Shown: one piece after another, positions 1-52,020 of the stretch | Numbering within the stretch: position 1 is the first letter of the stretch | Layout of the letters: every line of letters starts with the position of its first letter | From: Halocatena salina | GTDB lineage: Archaea > Halobacteriota > Halobacteria > Halobacteriales > Haloarculaceae | Direction of reading: 5' to 3' | DNA length: 64,000 bases | Assembly: GCF_023115355.1 (NCBI RefSeq) | Contig: NZ_CP096019.1 | Span: 1,736,001 to 1,800,000 of the forward strand | The notes under the pieces: generated by a model | Seen by the model: only the letters and a program-made list of their open reading frames with translations | The model's database searches: none | Told to the model about the DNA's origin: nothing | Made by a program: the position numbers and the translations under genes

Positions 1-94
1 AGCGGCAAGAGACACCCATGACTGGGAACGAAGCAGAGACATGTAACGGTGTCGAATCGTATCAGAAACGTGACCAGACACCTATTTTCCGCTC

Positions 95-178
95 GGGTGG
101 CTGCGCCACCCTCCCGCAAAAAATCTGCATTGCAAGAGCGAAGCTCTTGCAGGCTCCCAGATGGACTTCGTCCATCTG
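95..178. repeat. Cluster of three short perfect hairpins
   Basis: Three perfect inverted repeats lie close together. At 95-111 the arms are GGGTGGC/GCCACCC with a 3-nt loop. At 131-151 the arms are TGCAAGAGC/GCTCTTGCA with loop GAA. At 158-178 the arms are CAGATGGAC/GTCCATCTG with loop TTC. The stretch 107-123 (CACCCTCCCGCAAAAAA) is repeated exactly at 912-928 on the other side of the degraded gene. The hairpins may be terminators, MITE-like units or ends of a small cassette. The structures are seen directly and their function is inferred. Confidence 0.75.
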
Positions 179-248
179 AGAGGACCAAAAAAAGCCGCTC
201 GCTCCGCTTCGCTACGCTCGCGGGAACTGCGCTCGTGGGGCAAACGAG

Positions 249-45681: not shown

Positions 45682-47154
45682 TTATATAAGGTGTGTGAGG
45701 AGTCCGCTCGTACGAACGTAGAAATAGAGGACGAAAACCATGAGCAGCGCCATCTGCCCCGGTCTGACGTCAGCCCACTCGCCGCCAGCGGCCTTTACGA
45801 CCGGGTAGGCGATGATCCCTGCCGCGATGCCATAGGCGATCGAGAACGTAAAGGGCATTACGAGTAGCGTTAGTGCCGCCGGCACGGCGTGGGTAAAATC
45901 GTCCCACTGGATGTCCACGATGCCTCGGAGCATGAGAACCGCAACGACGACGAGCGCGATGTGAGAGGCGTGCATCGGGATCGCCGAGGCCAACGGAACG
46001 ATCGCCAGCGATGCGAGAAACAGTCCAGCGACGACGACTGCAGTCAGACCAGTCCGTCCGCCTTCCTCGACGCCGGTCGCCGATTCGATGTACGTCGTTA
46101 CCGTCGACGTGCCGAGGATACCACCTACAGTCGTGCCGATCGCGTCGGCCAACAGTGGCTTGTCGATCTCGGGGACGTTGCCGTCCTCATCGAGGAAGCC
46201 AGCGGCTTGAGAGACGCCCGTTAACGTCCCTGCCGTGTCGAAGAAGTCCACGAAGAAGAACGTGAACACGATCAGCGCGAACGCGAGCGAATCGATGTCG
46301 GCCAATCCTTCGAGAAACGCACCGATCAGGGGGGTGATGTCGTAGCCACCGCTGGTGTAGCTGAACGCCGACAGGGGATCGGACGACAGTGTCGACACCG
46401 AGATGGGATCGAGCACCGCGTCGCTGCTCAGCGTCGTTCCTTGTGGCGCGTTTTTCGCGGGGACAGCGTTGTATCCGAGTGCAGCCGCGAGGTAGCTCAT
46501 CACCGTCGTCCCAAGTACACCGAGAACGATCGAGCCTCGAATCCCGCGTGCGTGCAACGCGAACGTCACGAACAGCCCGACGACGGAAATGATCGCCACT
46601 GGATCGGTCGCAAACACCGGGTTGAGCGACACGAACGTGCTCGCATCACCAGCGGTAACCCGCATCGCTTGTAACCCGATGATAGCGAGGTACAGTCCGA
46701 TTCCTGCACCGACCGCGAGTTTCACCGGTTTCGGAAACAGCTCGATCACGTATTTGCGCGCGCCGATCAGGGTCAACACTCCGAAGATCACGCCTTCTAC
46801 GACGATCGCTGCGAGCGCCGTCCGCCACGGGACACCGAGCGTCCCGACGACTGTGAACGCGAAAAACGCGTTCAACCCGAGTCCCGGTGCCAACGCGAAC
46901 GGACGGTTGGCGTACACCCCCATCACGAACGTCGCAACCGCTGCCGACAGGATCGTCACTACTGTGAGCATCTGTACGATCTGCGCGTCGCTCCGGGTAC
47001 CGACATCTATCACCTGTCCCATGATCTGCGGGTTCACCACGACGATGTACGACATCGTCAAAAACGTCGTCAGCCCGGCGACGATCTCGGTCCGGAGGTC
47101 GGTGTCGTGCTCCTCGAGTCCGAAGAGCGATGAGATCCCATCGATCGGTGCCAT
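45682..47154 (-). CDS. NCS2-family purine permease (AzgA-like)
   Basis: A 490-residue transporter with about 12-14 transmembrane helices. It starts GISSLFGLEEHDTDLRTEI and contains VVNPQIMG, ALAPGLGLNAFF and ESATGVEEGGRTGLTAV, typical of guanine/hypoxanthine/adenine permeases of the AzgA group. It follows an HTH-phosphoribosyltransferase gene on the same strand. A striking palindrome sits just upstream of its TATA-like box, so purine-responsive control is inferred. Confidence 0.92.
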   Translation of the reverse strand: MAPIDGISSLFGLEEHDTDLRTEIVAGLTTFLTMSYIVVVNPQIMGQVIDVGTRSDAQIVQMLTVVTILSAAVATFVMGVYANRPFALAPGLGLNAFFAFTVVGTLGVPWRTALAAIVVEGVIFGVLTLIGARKYVIELFPKPVKLAVGAGIGLYLAIIGLQAMRVTAGDASTFVSLNPVFATDPVAIISVVGLFVTFALHARGIRGSIVLGVLGTTVMSYLAAALGYNAVPAKNAPQGTTLSSDAVLDPISVSTLSSDPLSAFSYTSGGYDITPLIGAFLEGLADIDSLAFALIVFTFFFVDFFDTAGTLTGVSQAAGFLDEDGNVPEIDKPLLADAIGTTVGGILGTSTVTTYIESATGVEEGGRTGLTAVVVAGLFLASLAIVPLASAIPMHASHIALVVVAVLMLRGIVDIQWDDFTHAVPAALTLLVMPFTFSIAYGIAAGIIAYPVVKAAGGEWADVRPGQMALLMVFVLYFYVRTSGLLTHLI

Positions 47155-47184
47155 CTTACACGAATGAGCATAATCGAAACAGCG

Positions 47185-47219
47185 TAATTAAGTATTTCTA
47201 TCGACTTCCGATAGAAATA
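47185..47219 (-). promoter_or_regulatory. Palindromic operator and TATA box of the purine permease
   Basis: Perfect 11-bp arms TATTTCTATCG (47193-47203) and CGATAGAAATA (47209-47219) flank a 5-nt spacer. On the minus strand a TATA-like CTTAATTA (47185-47192) follows directly, 31-38 nt before ATG 47154. The palindrome therefore abuts the BRE/TATA region, as expected of an activator or repressor site. The upstream phosphoribosyltransferase-HTH protein is the obvious candidate. Confidence 0.6.
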
Positions 47220-47241
47220 TACACGATCATGGATAGGTGTG

Positions 47242-47955
47242 CTATTCGAGCGTTAGTAGTGATTCGACAGGTGCATCGGTTCGTTGGCGGGCGATCTCGA
47301 TCCCATCGTCGCCGACTGCGATGAGGGTGAACACGCCGACGACGGAGGCTTCCGCGATGGACGCGATGTCCAACAGGAGTTCTTGGGTTTCTCCCGACCG
47401 GATCAGATCGTCGACGACGAGCACCCGTTGGTCCGGTTCGAGCGCGTGTTCGGGCAGATAATACGTGAGTTCGATCCCGCTGGCGAGTCGAGATCGTGCC
47501 TCGATGAACTCTTCGACGGCGGTTTCTTTGGTTTTTTTCGCGTAGGCGATGCGGGCGTCGAAGTACCGCGCCATCGCCGATCCGAGCGTGATTCCGTCGG
47601 TTGCGGCGGTTAACACGACGTCTGGCTGGTCGAAGTCGAACGCCTCTGCGGCTACGGGCGCGGTGAGGTCGAGAAACGTCTGATCGAACACGAGCGCCGA
47701 ATTATCGATGTATCCCGCGTCGTCGAACGCGATGTGTCGTTCGAGTTCGTCGGCGAGCGCTTGGGGACCGATGTCCGCCAGCAGTTGCCGGGCGCGTTCT
47801 GTGCCCGGCAGGACGTGTCCGTTGACGTACCGGTTCAGATCGCCTGCCGGAAAGCCGGTCGTTTCAGCTAGCTCCTCGTACGTTCGCGTCTCTTTGAGCG
47901 TCCGCAACACTGCAACCGCCCGTAACTGGAGGGTCGCTTTCTCCGCCCTGTTCAT
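47242..47955 (-). CDS. HTH-phosphoribosyltransferase, probable purine regulator
   Basis: A 237-residue protein. An N-terminal HTH (TYEELAETTGFPAGDLNRYVNG) is joined to a type I phosphoribosyltransferase domain with the PRPP-binding motif VLVVDDLIRSGETQ. Such fusions act either as salvage enzymes (adenine or hypoxanthine PRTase) or, like bacterial PurR, as regulators. I start at MNRAEKATLQ: a TATA-like element (47978-47988) lies 23-33 nt upstream of it, but only 8-18 nt from the earlier ATG at 47970. Confidence 0.85.
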   Translation of the reverse strand: MNRAEKATLQLRAVAVLRTLKETRTYEELAETTGFPAGDLNRYVNGHVLPGTERARQLLADIGPQALADELERHIAFDDAGYIDNSALVFDQTFLDLTAPVAAEAFDFDQPDVVLTAATDGITLGSAMARYFDARIAYAKKTKETAVEEFIEARSRLASGIELTYYLPEHALEPDQRVLVVDDLIRSGETQELLLDIASIAEASVVGVFTLIAVGDDGIEIARQRTDAPVESLLTLE

Positions 47956-47979
47956 ATCCTCATTCTCCAATGCACAGGT

Positions 47980-48261
47980 ATGGATACTTCGATTTGGATA
48001 TCCCAGAATATGAGCATGGTCGTGAGTAAATTAGTGCAAGGGTCGTTCCCGTGGCGTCGTGACGATTTTGCCCGATTCTCCCGTAGTAGAATCGAGCAGT
48101 GGTATGGACACCCGTTTCGATACCCAGTAAATCGAGAGCAAAGGGGCGTCACGACCCCGAAATCGGTTCGCGAACGATCGGATCTCACACCTGGCGATTA
48201 CGTCGACATCGATGTTGAGGGTGGTTTTGTCGTACTCCGGCCTCGTGTTTCACGGGAATAG
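47980..48261 (+). CDS. AbrB/SpoVT-like small DNA-binding protein
   Basis: A 93-residue frame. The C-terminal half (about 48-93) reads RGVTTPKSVRERSDLTPGDYVDIDVEGGFVVL, a swapped-hairpin AbrB pattern. The usual glycine-arginine-valine-threonine-isoleucine entry is altered, and the first 47 residues are not recognised. The start overlaps the promoter region of the divergent phosphoribosyltransferase gene, so the true start may be further in (for example 48010). It could be an antitoxin-like protein without its toxin, or a remnant. Confidence 0.5.
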   Translation: MDTSIWISQNMSMVVSKLVQGSFPWRRDDFARFSRSRIEQWYGHPFRYPVNREQRGVTTPKSVRERSDLTPGDYVDIDVEGGFVVLRPRVSRE

Positions 48262-48380
48262 TTATTCGGACTTAAAAGTATGATTTGTTGGGACCGAGCA
48301 GCCGGTGCCATGAATATTGATTTCGGAGCCATAAATGATTATACTCCAACAATAATGCTCATAGAGAAATGGACAAAATT

Positions 48381-48388
48381 TTTATAAA
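48381..48388 (+). promoter_or_regulatory. TATA box of the DUF262 gene
   Basis: TTTATAAA preceded by an A-rich BRE-like stretch (ACAAAATT) lies 22-29 nt before ATG 48410. It is a good archaeal promoter for a leaderless message. Confidence 0.6.
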
Positions 48389-48409
48389 TGGCATAACTCG
48401 ATGTAGGCT

Positions 48410-50260
48410 ATGACCTATCAATCGATGCAAATTGCGAATATTATTCCCGACATTAATAATCAGTTTTTCCTACCTGGTATTCAACGTGAATTTGTCTGGA
48501 ATACAGATCAAATTATTCAGCTATTCGATTCAGTTATTAGGGGCTACCCGATTGGTTCGTTCCTCTTTTGGAACGTTAGGGGTAAAGTTGCAAAAGAACG
48601 TATCAAATATGAATTCATCAAACATTACATTACTGAAGGTGTATATCCTGCTGAATTTGACGATAGGGACTTTCGCAATCCAAAAGTTCGAGATGAGTAC
48701 AGCGAAGGTCTCCCTAATAAATTGACGCTAGTGCTTGATGGCCAACAACGACTTTCGTCTTTCTATATTGGACTTAAGGGAAGTCTTACAGATCGTGGCT
48801 ATAACCAACGCAAGAAAAAGCCTGATTCTTGGGATCGTAAAAAGCTGTATATGAATTTGTTGTTTGATAATGCGACAGTCATGGACAATGAATTCGGATT
48901 GAAATATATGTTGGAATTCAAAGAACCCAAGCCCTCTCACTCAGAGACTGAATACTGGTTTTTTGTTGGTGATATTCTAGATATCGAGTCACGAGATGAT
49001 GCGTATGAGAGAACTGATGAAATCATGAATGAACTTGAGATGGTCGGAATTGATGGAATTGAGAGGTCAAATATTCAACGAAACCTCAACGACCTTTGGC
49101 AAACTTTCCACGAACGGAATATAATCAACTATTATGAATTGGGGGCGAAACATAATGATGATATACTCGATATCTTTATTAGAGCGAATGATGGCGGGAC
49201 GCAATTAAGCAAAGAAGAGATGATGCTGTCCGTAGCGACAGCAGAGTGGTCAAAAAGTAATAATCCAACTGATGCTAGAAAAAAGGTTACCACGTTAGTT
49301 GATAAACTCAATAACTATTATCCAAATTCTAATTTCAATTTTGCCACCAATTTTGTCTTGCGTAGTCTCCTTGTAGCGACTGGTTTGCGAAGTAAATACG
49401 ATATGCAGGCATTTTCATCCGATAATCTACAAGAGATGAAATCTACCTTCGAAGAGGATGAATTTGAGGGGTCATTTTTTAAGGCATTAGATTTAATCAA
49501 GAGTTATGGATTAGATGGACGTTCTGTCTCCTCAACTGTGGCAATTATCCCAATAGTTTATTTCTTCTATTTAAATAAAAATTATAACTTAAGCTGGGAA
49601 TCTAAACAGGGTCGGAAAACGAGAGCAAAGATTTTCTACTGGCTTTCGACTACCCTCCTGAAGGGAAGTTATACACAGTCAGGACATCAGGTGATGACAG
49701 TTACACAAGATGCTATTGAGGCTGCGCCACGCGGTGTGTTTCCGCTTGAAAGCCTCCATCATGAAGTACTTGCAATGGGGAAACCAATCACATTCCTTGA
49801 GGAGGAAGCGCGAGAGATGCTTCAGAGTCTCAAGTATCGTGACAGACATGCTAAAATATTTCTTTCACTGCTGTACTTCCCTGATCCAGCTAGTGAGCAC
49901 GAGACATTCGAAATCGATCATATCTTTCCTAGAAGTGAATTAACTGAAAGGAATTTGATAGAAGACTATGATATGAATGTTACCCAAGCAAAACGGTATG
50001 ATTCACTCCGAGATAGTATTCTCAATCTCCAATTGCTTACGCCAGAAGAAAATGCTGAGAAAGCAGATCGTCCATACAATGAGTGGCTTCAGAGTCGACA
50101 TGAATCACAACTAAACCGACACTATATTCCTCAAGATGATAATCAAGATCTGTATACTGTTGCTCAGTTCGAAGATTTTCTCAACCTGCGCAAAGAACTG
50201 ATCGTTTCTGAAATTATTGAGATGTCTAACAAAATAGAAGAGTTGTTCGATAGCTCGTAG
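48410..50260 (+). CDS. DUF262/HNH protein, putative modified-DNA restriction
   Basis: A 616-residue protein. The N-terminal DUF262 (ParB/sulfiredoxin-like) domain shows PGIQREFVW at 22-30, GYPIGSFLFW at 45-54 and DGQQRLSSFY at 110-119. The C-terminal HNH-type part has FEIDHIFPRSEL with H504. This joins the two parts found in GmrSD-type IV restriction enzymes, and is also like SspE and BrxU defence proteins. The gene is strongly A+T-rich compared with its neighbours, which indicates recent transfer. No methylase, phosphorothioation or BREX genes are adjacent, so it seems to stand alone. A role against phages with modified DNA is inferred from family. Confidence 0.85.
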   Translation: MTYQSMQIANIIPDINNQFFLPGIQREFVWNTDQIIQLFDSVIRGYPIGSFLFWNVRGKVAKERIKYEFIKHYITEGVYPAEFDDRDFRNPKVRDEYSEGLPNKLTLVLDGQQRLSSFYIGLKGSLTDRGYNQRKKKPDSWDRKKLYMNLLFDNATVMDNEFGLKYMLEFKEPKPSHSETEYWFFVGDILDIESRDDAYERTDEIMNELEMVGIDGIERSNIQRNLNDLWQTFHERNIINYYELGAKHNDDILDIFIRANDGGTQLSKEEMMLSVATAEWSKSNNPTDARKKVTTLVDKLNNYYPNSNFNFATNFVLRSLLVATGLRSKYDMQAFSSDNLQEMKSTFEEDEFEGSFFKALDLIKSYGLDGRSVSSTVAIIPIVYFFYLNKNYNLSWESKQGRKTRAKIFYWLSTTLLKGSYTQSGHQVMTVTQDAIEAAPRGVFPLESLHHEVLAMGKPITFLEEEAREMLQSLKYRDRHAKIFLSLLYFPDPASEHETFEIDHIFPRSELTERNLIEDYDMNVTQAKRYDSLRDSILNLQLLTPEENAEKADRPYNEWLQSRHESQLNRHYIPQDDNQDLYTVAQFEDFLNLRKELIVSEIIEMSNKIEELFDSS

Positions 50261-50980: not shown

Positions 50981-51508
50981 TTACGATCCGTCCAACAGCT
51001 CCGACGCCGTAACGAGCGCCTCCAGCTCGGTTCCCGCCGCTTCGAGCTGTTCGGTCGCGCCTTCCTCGCGGTCGACGACGACGAGCACGCGGTTCACGAC
51101 GGCTCCGGCGTCTCTGAGCGCCTCGACCGCGTCAAGCGCGCTCTGGCCCGTGGTGGCGATATCCTCGATGACGACGACCTCTTCGTCTTCCGTGAGGCGG
51201 CCCTCGATGCGGTTGCCCGTCCCGTACTCTTTGGCTTTCTTTCGGACGATGACGTACGGACACTCGGCTTTCATCGCCGTCGCTGCGACGAGGGGCACCG
51301 CACCCAGCGCAACCCCGGCCGGTTTTTCCGCTCCGATGCGCTCTGCGAACCCGCTCGCGATGAGGTTCAAACAGCGCGGTTCGGTCTCGAAGAGATACTT
51401 ATCGACGTAGTAATCGCTCGTTCCACCGTGTGACAGCTCGAACGTCCCGAACTGCACTGCATCGGCTGCTTTGAGCGCCGTGATGAGCTTTGATTTCTTC
51501 GTGGCCAT
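50981..51508 (-). CDS. pyrE: Orotate phosphoribosyltransferase
   Basis: A 175-residue PRTase for the fifth step of pyrimidine synthesis (orotate plus PRPP to OMP). The substrate loop [17 protein letters not shown] and the PRPP motif [11 protein letters not shown] (111-121) are present. I start at [12 protein letters not shown], where conservation begins; a longer in-frame start adds 32 unlike residues. It ends tail-to-tail with the small winged-helix gene. Confidence 0.95.
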
Positions 51509-51600
51509 ACGGTGGAGTGAGACTGGTGTCGTGTTAAGTTGACCGAGTGGGTTCCAGTCGAAACGGAGGGGTTCGGGTGAGATTCTCACGCTCGTCCCGA

Positions 51601-52020
51601 TCAAAACACCGTGTCCGCGGTCGCCGCACCGACGACGCTGAACATCGCACCGAGACAGAGCGCCTTTGCCGTCGTGGGAACGCGCTGTTCGGGCGGGATG
51701 TGGTCGAGAAACACTGATGGCGCATCGAACAGCAGCGCGAGCACCAACACCGAGCCGAAGGAGACGAGCATGAGCGAGACGAATCGGAGCGGCACGCCAC
51801 CGACATCCGATTCCCGTTCAGGATCACGCTCGGTGGCCGCGCCGTACAGCGCTATATAGCCGATCGTCCCGACGATCACGGCCGTGAGGAGTCCCTGAAT
51901 CCAGCTCATTGAGTGAGCGAGCAGCCACACCTCTTCAGTAACGACGAAGGGACCGGCCAGCAGGAAGCCACCGATCAGCTGTTGGGCCGTGTCGGCGGCT
52001 TTGAACCGAGGTGCACGCAT
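51601..52020 (-). CDS. DUF2391-like membrane protein
   Basis: A 139-residue protein with four hydrophobic segments ([71 protein letters not shown]). It fits the DUF2391 family of putative integral membrane proteins. I start at [12 protein letters not shown]; the longer frame overlaps the divergent methyltransferase and looks non-coding. Function unknown. Confidence 0.75.

Follow-up and report, generated by a model that had tools for sequence, protein, structure and literature searches.

The window analysed here, a 64-kb stretch of the Halocatena salina genome, encodes an HTH-phosphoribosyltransferase (HTH-PRTase) first and a permease second, 87 nt apart, and the question raised by this locus is which element of the intergenic region controls these genes and which protein reads it. 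A sequence-only reading had singled out a palindrome beside the TATA-like box of the permease promoter and proposed that the HTH-PRTase acts there in a purine-controlled manner, as an archaeal counterpart of PurR. The outline of this proposal is retained, as the HTH-PRTase is the best candidate and as the permease gene, the purine synthesis genes and the HTH-PRTase gene itself share one candidate operator; the DNA element is not retained. The best explanation, with a probability of roughly 0.8, is that the intergenic region is a control site of a haloarchaeal purine regulon run by the HTH-PRTase as a PurR-like repressor. The features concerned are listed in Table 1.

Table 1. Features of the HTH-PRTase and permease locus, in coordinates of the window
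Feature	Position	Strand	Remarks
NCS2-type xanthine/uracil permease	45682..47154	-	PF00860, E 2.5e-36
Candidate operator 2, weak partner, TTATGCTCATTCGTGTAAGA	47154..47173	-	ranks third in the window, at 10.0 bits
TATA-like box of the permease promoter, CTTAATTA	47185..47192	-	aligned relatives have CTTAA/CTTAT/TTTAA here
Flagged palindrome	47193..47219	.	near-perfect only in the closest relative
Candidate operator 1, CTATCCATGATCGTGTATAT	47217..47236	-	copy of TATNCACG-NN-CGTGNATA, 23.2 bits
HTH-PRTase, presumed purine regulator, 237 aa from ATG 47955	47242..47955	-	NCBIfam NF006328/PRK08558
Candidate own-promoter operator, GTATCCATACCTGTGCATTG	47968..47987	-	ranks second in the window, at 11.1 bits
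Weak partner in own promoter, TTACTCACGACCATGCTCAT	48010..48029	-	7.4 bits; exactly 42 bp upstream of GTATCCATACCTGTGCATTG

The flagged palindrome is present as described: it lies between the HTH-PRTase stop codon and the permease start codon, and both genes are encoded by the minus strand. TATTTCTATCG-ACTTC-CGATAGAAATA consists of two 11-bp arms (47193-47203 and 47209-47219) that are 100% complementary and enclose a 5-nt loop, and the whole segment first flagged (47185-47219) is this palindrome plus the TATA-like box. Out of 2000 dinucleotide shuffles of the intergenic region (87 nt, 47155-47241), one produced perfect 11-bp arms with a loop of 0-10 nt. The same scan of the whole window gave five matches, which correspond to two palindromes (the flagged one and, in four registers, a G+C-rich one at about 891-923), and 12 shuffled windows gave 0 to 3 such matches, with a mean of 0.9. 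The flagged palindrome is unusual for its short intergenic region and ordinary for the window as a whole. The G+C-rich palindrome at 891-923 is also perfect and reads TGCGGGAGGGTGCGC-AAG-GCGCACCCTCCCGCA.

Conservation of the flagged palindrome is confined to the closest relatives. In Halocatena pleomorpha (L032), the nearest named relative by HTH-PRTase protein (96%) among the best 80 of 264 loci, 10 of the 11 arm positions pair, and in the next relative (L033) 9 of 11 do, while the palindrome is gone from two other species of the genus (L034 and L035). An alignment of eight promoters shows that the right arm (minus strand CGATAGAAATA) is a conserved stretch directly upstream of the TATA box and that only the closest relatives share the left arm; the wider conservation of the right arm is therefore explained by its being promoter sequence. 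No further copy with up to three mismatches was found in the 4.01-Mb genome of H. salina. The expectation that CTATCG-N5-CGATAG would recur in orthologous promoters or ahead of further purine genes failed, since the exact motif occurs at six places (one each in 6 of 59 genomes), two of which are this locus in H. salina and in genome G004, and its reversed control occurs at eight places in the same genomes; its frequency is that of the background. The palindrome could still be regarded as the operator of the regulator, or as a further operator, on the grounds that its perfect arms abut the TATA box, that so few local shuffles match it and that the distances from its centre (47206) to those of the two candidate operators, 20.5 and 42.5 bp, are roughly in phase, as was noticed post hoc. 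However, it is unlike the conserved operator described below, it decays among relatives and it is no more frequent than background, and this role, rejected because conservation is lacking, is extremely improbable.

A structure in RNA, either a terminator of the HTH-PRTase transcript or a leader structure, is very unlikely as well. The excised palindrome folds at -11.8 kcal/mol (z -4.0), the hairpin begins 22 nt past the HTH-PRTase stop codon and an imperfect hairpin persists in the best fold of L033, but no U-run follows it, the fold of the whole intergenic region reaches a z of only -1.6 (16 of 200 shuffles were equally good), and the hairpin is missing from the best fold of H. pleomorpha and absent in L034, its right arm being conserved as promoter sequence. 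This reading was rejected for want of a U-run and for poor conservation. The flagged palindrome is a bystander and not the regulatory element.

A different palindrome is conserved in the permease promoters. The motif was made de novo, by an unsupervised symmetric search of 57 nonredundant permease promoters out of 76 (the promoter of the window included), and reads aTATcCACGwwCGTGgATAt. It scores at least 15 bits in 55 of the 76 promoters, the 57 training promoters included, and 68 of the 76, of which 57 trained the motif, beat all of 50 shuffles; the permease promoters of L048, L068, L075 and L103 score about 1 bit or less. The three best matches in the 64-kb window are operator 1, the site in the promoter of the HTH-PRTase gene and the site at the permease start, in this order. 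Operator 1 abuts the flagged palindrome and is centred at 47226.5, 72 bp upstream of the permease ATG and about 38 bp upstream of the segment which we take to be the TATA box from general rules of archaeal promoters (the transcription start is predicted, and BRE and TATA elements were assigned by eye). Operator 2 is centred at 47163.5, over the permease start codon and presumed transcription start; the best start-proximal half-site is centred at -9 in 18 of the 57 nonredundant permease promoters. Covariation between the arms of operator 1 across 42 promoters is mixed (pairs 1 and 4 are symmetric above the expectation for independent arms, pair 9 is below it, the others are about as expected), and the symmetry of the operator is therefore argued from the motif and not from compensatory changes.

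The HTH-PRTase gene carries the motif in its own promoter. The centre of GTATCCATACCTGTGCATTG precedes the ATG by 22 bp and lies over the presumed TATA box; averaged over 80 nonredundant PRTase promoters, the score is highest at -24 and -22, with an additional peak at -64 to -66 in the orthologous promoters. Among 100 PRTase promoters, none of which was used in training, 72 beat all 50 shuffles and 92 score below 15 bits. A MazE/AbrB-like gene and a GmrSD-type restriction gene (47980-50260, plus strand) lie between pyrE (50981-51604) and the HTH-PRTase gene; among the 80 named loci (the best 80 of 264), only H. pleomorpha matches both of them, its GmrSD at 99.4% identity versus 91% for pyrE, and pyrE is found upstream on the same strand in 29 of these 80. 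The MazE/AbrB-like and GmrSD stretch looks like a recent insertion or exchange.

The distribution of the motif over other genes was examined with the pattern TATNCACGNNCGTGNATA, which was read off permease intergenic regions, the purine synthesis genes having taken no part in making it. Searched with at most one mismatch in 59 genomes, it has 57 matches, of which 56 fall in genomes that carry the HTH-PRTase gene, versus four for the reversed control; in the H. salina genome, operator 1 is its only match. The gene test took 55 of the 57 sites and left out a site of G014 at its permease and a site of G006 that duplicates one of G002. Within it, 47 of the 55 sites precede one of the following genes by at most 260 bp: purF (11), permease (7), the divergent purB/purNH pair (6), folD (6), purS (4), purL (3), purD (3), purK (2), pyrB (2), purA (1), hpt (1) and the PRTase gene (1). 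One protein per biosynthesis class was named by NCBIfam models and the others were assigned to these by tblastn; the protein called 'hpt' passes both the archaeal hypoxanthine/guanine model and the adenine PRTase model. Eight sites (L131, L132, L138, L150, L160, L163, L164 and L179) lie away from such genes, and those of L131 and L132 represent one position, within an ORF, of two twin genomes. The motif almost certainly marks a purine regulon.

The pyrB operators (L149:1501-1518 and L172:2001-2018) come from two genomes of a single genus; as pyrB belongs to the pyrimidine genes, cross-control of pyrimidine synthesis by purine status is possible there. In L160 (positions 1960-2018, genome G001), two operator copies (1960-1977 and 2001-2018) stand 41 bp apart in a noncoding stretch, about 470 bp before an ORF that resembles, by eye, a phage packaging protein; no reference purine gene is nearby.

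The motif follows the HTH-PRTase gene from genome to genome. The pattern is present in 29 of 31 genomes with the gene versus 1 of 28 without it (Fisher 2e-13), counts that are not independent because the genomes are related; by genus, the figures are 17 of 19 versus 1 of 23. When only genomes of 96% completeness or more are counted, they are 25 of 26 versus 0 of 15, a test from which G002, whose contig is the same as that of G006, was dropped. The exceptions are G009 and G036, which have the gene and no pattern, and G042, which has the pattern without the gene. PRK02277, another haloarchaeal PRTase-like family, was considered as an alternative driver of the motif and rejected, as it shows no association with the pattern (25 of 46 genomes with it versus 5 of 13 without, p 0.36).

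Synthesis promoters scored with the matrix behave alike. Sites of at least 15 bits are found in genomes with the gene at 11 of 14 purB, 6 of 14 purF and 4 of 14 purL promoters, and in genomes without it at 0 of 14, 0 of 16 and 0 of 16, respectively; pooled, this amounts to 21 of 42 versus 0 of 46, half of the 42 staying below 15 bits. In further genomes, which are new for these promoters and perhaps not new to the permease training set, 22 of 30 purF promoters reach at least 15 bits and 27 of 30 reach 12 bits, and folD promoters in genomes with the gene do so in 4 of 15 and 7 of 15 cases, respectively, versus 0 of 15 at 15 bits or more in genomes without it, 12 of these 15 control genomes having been used earlier for other genes. 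In H. salina itself, the purB/purNH promoter has a 21.5-bit site, while the purF (-1.2 bits) and purL (-4.9 bits) promoters have none; the regulon may therefore be small here, comprising perhaps only the permease gene, purB/purNH and the HTH-PRTase gene. An operator-like site of 13.1 bits (L183:2001-2018; C1:1094023 in the H. salina genome) also lies at the start of an ORF identified by eye as an aminotransferase, and may be due to chance.

Sites occur in pairs with preferred spacings. In the first spacing count, the symmetric matrix alone gave no clear partner; one appeared once the scan was extended past the start codon and half-sites were scored. In this first half-site count, which is exploratory, the scores around 51 biosynthesis-gene sites peak at +42 (z 8.0) and those around 42 permease sites at -52 (z 6.2), +61 (z 4.8), +53 and +63. 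Among 34 further sites (27 of purF and 7 of folD), the top offset is +42 again (z 8.1), in a repeat whose two genes also occur in the first set and some of whose genomes may be among the species that trained the motif. The split by gene class is the stronger support for the 42-bp offset: the top offset is 42 or 43 bp in 8 of 10 mutually non-homologous biosynthesis gene classes, i.e. +42 in folD, purF, purK, purS and pyrB, +43 in purL and -42 in purB and purA, with purA represented by a single site and purK and pyrB by two each. In the other classes, purD has +55 first and +42 second, and hpt, a single site, has +15. Only Halorubrum contributes to the -52 peak of the permeases; once its named loci are removed, peaks stand at 53, 61, 63 and 52, and the offsets of 52-53 and 61-63 bp rest on the first permease site set. 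In the window, the pairs stand exactly 63 bp apart at the permease and 42 bp apart in the HTH-PRTase gene's own promoter. At 10.5 bp per helical turn, offsets of 42-43, 52-53 and 61-63 bp correspond to about 4, 5 and 6 turns, with 61 bp a little under the full number. In purF and folD, the partner half-site overlies what is presumed to be the BRE/TATA region; in purL and the permease, it lies at the start.

The protein encoded by the HTH-PRTase gene scores 336.7 bits with NF006328/PRK08558, above the cut-off of 184, over residues 6-241 of 242 (reading from 47970). Of 295 genomes sampled from the phylum, 50 have this family, and every one of them belongs to the order of the window; among 14 named controls, the family has a member in Haloferax volcanii and in Sulfolobus acidocaldarius. 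In its N-terminal domain, DLNRYVNGHVLP is invariant in 15 aligned members. No Pfam match to an HTH was found in this domain at the default threshold; searched alone, it gives weak matches below the cut-off to HTH_31 and HTH_3 in all four members tested (E 6.8e-4 and 0.0099 for the protein of the window). The model of the domain is helical (pLDDT 93.9) and its nearest structure matches are weak and mostly of the XRE-type HTH, the best being 2o38 with a Z of 7.0 and an rmsd of 3.3 over 67 residues, and some were solved on operator DNA; no Foldseek match was found at E 0.001 (best E 0.21), nor any meaningful match in a profile search of the PDB (best E 0.077). For the full-length model (pLDDT 88.1, pTM 0.82), the best Foldseek match is Bacillus subtilis PurR (E 1.2e-12), which is also the best profile match (E 1.3e-13, PRTase domain). 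In the VIA comparison, XPRT (Z 22.9) and several APRTs (Z about 21) resemble the PRTase domain somewhat more than PurR does (20.6). The PRPP loop is largely kept as VLVVDDLIRSGET, DDLIRSGET here being aligned with DDFMKAGGT in PurR, and the predicted fold and this loop appear compatible with adenine PRTase activity. Since the loop is largely kept and the family is annotated as an enzyme, the HTH-PRTase may be, or may also be, a salvage enzyme.

In the mechanism proposed here, a dimer of the HTH-PRTase would bind the 18-bp palindrome TATNCACG-NN-CGTGNATA (operator 1 in the window) and, cooperatively, a weaker partner on the same helix face about 4, 5 or 6 turns away. In the permease pair the partner would sit over the start, and in the own-promoter pair the stronger site would sit over the TATA box. 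A bound pair, by covering or flanking the core promoter, would repress the permease gene, the de novo purine genes, folD (one-carbon supply), salvage and the HTH-PRTase gene, with a ligand in the PRTase pocket signalling purine status. The parts of this proposal differ in strength. The paired palindromes, their conservation, their placement at purine genes, their co-occurrence with the HTH-PRTase gene and the spacing rule are observed; that the HTH-PRTase binds these sites as regulator of the regulon is very likely, that it represses is probable, and that the two sites are bridged is somewhat more likely than not. The picture in full, i.e. an XRE/Cro-like domain joined to a PurR-like PRTase sensor, a repressor that bridges operators 4, 5 or 6 turns apart across the core promoter and responds to purine nucleotides instead of PRPP, and a purine regulon extending genome-wide in haloarchaea, has about even odds. 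Concerning the ligand, passages of a study of Halobacterium salinarum describe purine genes as high at low purines, even where PRPP was undetectable (PMC4540570); for this reason, if H. salinarum uses an HTH-PRTase regulator, a purine co-repressor fits better than a PRPP inducer.

The main alternatives concern the identity of the regulator and the sign of its action. Another transcription factor might bind TATNCACG-NN-CGTGNATA, with the HTH-PRTase being only a salvage enzyme within the regulon. The family is named after adenine phosphoribosyltransferase, apt3 of Sulfolobus islandicus is described as an enzyme gene, the HTH-PRTase gene itself carries the operator, the HTH assignment of the N-domain is built on weak matches and co-occurrence of gene and operator is no proof of binding. 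These points are outweighed by a conserved HTH-like N-terminal domain with an invariant DLNRYVNGHVLP, which has no obvious use in a salvage enzyme, by the genome-by-genome match between gene and operator, which PRK02277 does not show, and by the position of the gene, which a permease homologue closely follows, standing directly behind it, in 62 of the 80 named loci (the best 80 of 264); a separate factor is decidedly unlikely.

Alternatively, the HTH-PRTase, acting through the same sites, might activate the purine genes and repress only itself. The strong site frequently lies upstream of the BRE/TATA region, a placement that could suit an activator, and GfcR, a haloarchaeal protein of another PRTase-like family, is presented as an activator in passages of PMC11519228. 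However, a protein bound to the partner half-site should block transcription, both where that half-site overlies the presumed BRE/TATA region (purF, folD) and where it lies at the start (purL, permease), as should one bound to the stronger own site over the TATA box of the HTH-PRTase gene. Repression is therefore preferred, and activation is rather unlikely.

If the repressor reading is true, the annotation 'adenine phosphoribosyltransferase', carried by the family in the sampled genomes mentioned above, becomes that of a regulator, and the system would follow a PurR-like logic with a reader domain and an operator grammar of its own. The analysis names a candidate protein, an operator, a list of targets in many genera and a spacing rule. 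In the open-access literature, judged by title and start of abstract, no haloarchaeal purine regulator and no such motif is described; subscription papers and preprints were outside this scope, and an earlier description of the regulator or of the motif elsewhere cannot be excluded. In H. salinarum, according to passages of work from 2013 and 2015, purine genes follow purine levels through a TrmB-independent factor or mechanism (PMC3794607, PMC4540570), and the first of these sources places purine synthesis seemingly under such a factor, with no PurR homologue identified (PMC3794607). TrmB itself affects purine gene levels in this species, as stated in parts of the same papers (PMC3794607, PMC4540570).

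Among the systems to which this one can be compared, NF006328/PRK08558 carries the name adenine phosphoribosyltransferase, whereas a regulatory role is proposed here. A member is probably Apt3 of H. volcanii, which is drawn with Ura2 near HVO_2248 according to a figure legend of PMC7824242; we infer that Apt3 is the NF006328 protein of this species. The apt3 gene of S. islandicus, perhaps of the same family, is described as a gene for adenine PRTase. GfcR of H. volcanii and Haloarcula hispanica, which we take to belong to PRK02277, is a haloarchaeal regulator. The HTH-PRTase scores 19.8 bits with PRK02277, below the cut-off of 115, and its membership in that family was rejected. According to passages of PMC11519228, GfcR activates sugar degradation, and its gene in H. 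hispanica had been annotated as pyrE1 (PMC11519228).

The comparison with B. subtilis PurR (1p4a, 1o57, 7rmw) shows both differences and likenesses. The HTH-PRTase scores 37.6 bits with TIGR01743, the Firmicutes PurR model, versus a cut-off of 258.7, over the PRTase part only. The DNA-binding domain of PurR is a winged HTH, as stated in parts of PMC8789054, whereas the modelled N-domain here looks XRE/Cro-like; with the N-domain alone, PurR is not among the structure matches listed, which excludes nothing. In the same passages, the PurR operator consists of two 14-bp CGAA PurBoxes with a 16-17-bp spacer (PMC8789054), whereas here an 18-bp palindrome, distinct from the CGAA PurBox, has a partner 42-63 bp off, and the promoters are archaeal, unlike those of B. 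subtilis PurR. Release of repression by PRPP, reported for PurR in that source (PMC8789054), is doubtful as a mode of induction here. The whole model nevertheless aligns end to end with 1p4a and 7rmw, with the domains swung (Foldseek rmsd 11.7; VIA Z 20.4-20.6 over 1..237), and both proteins combine an N-terminal DNA-binding domain, a predicted one here, with a PRTase-like domain. The targets of PurR are purine genes, a purine permease gene and its own gene, with two boxes per promoter (PMC8789054), and the candidate sites described here are found at purine synthesis genes, at the permease gene and at the gene of the putative regulator itself.
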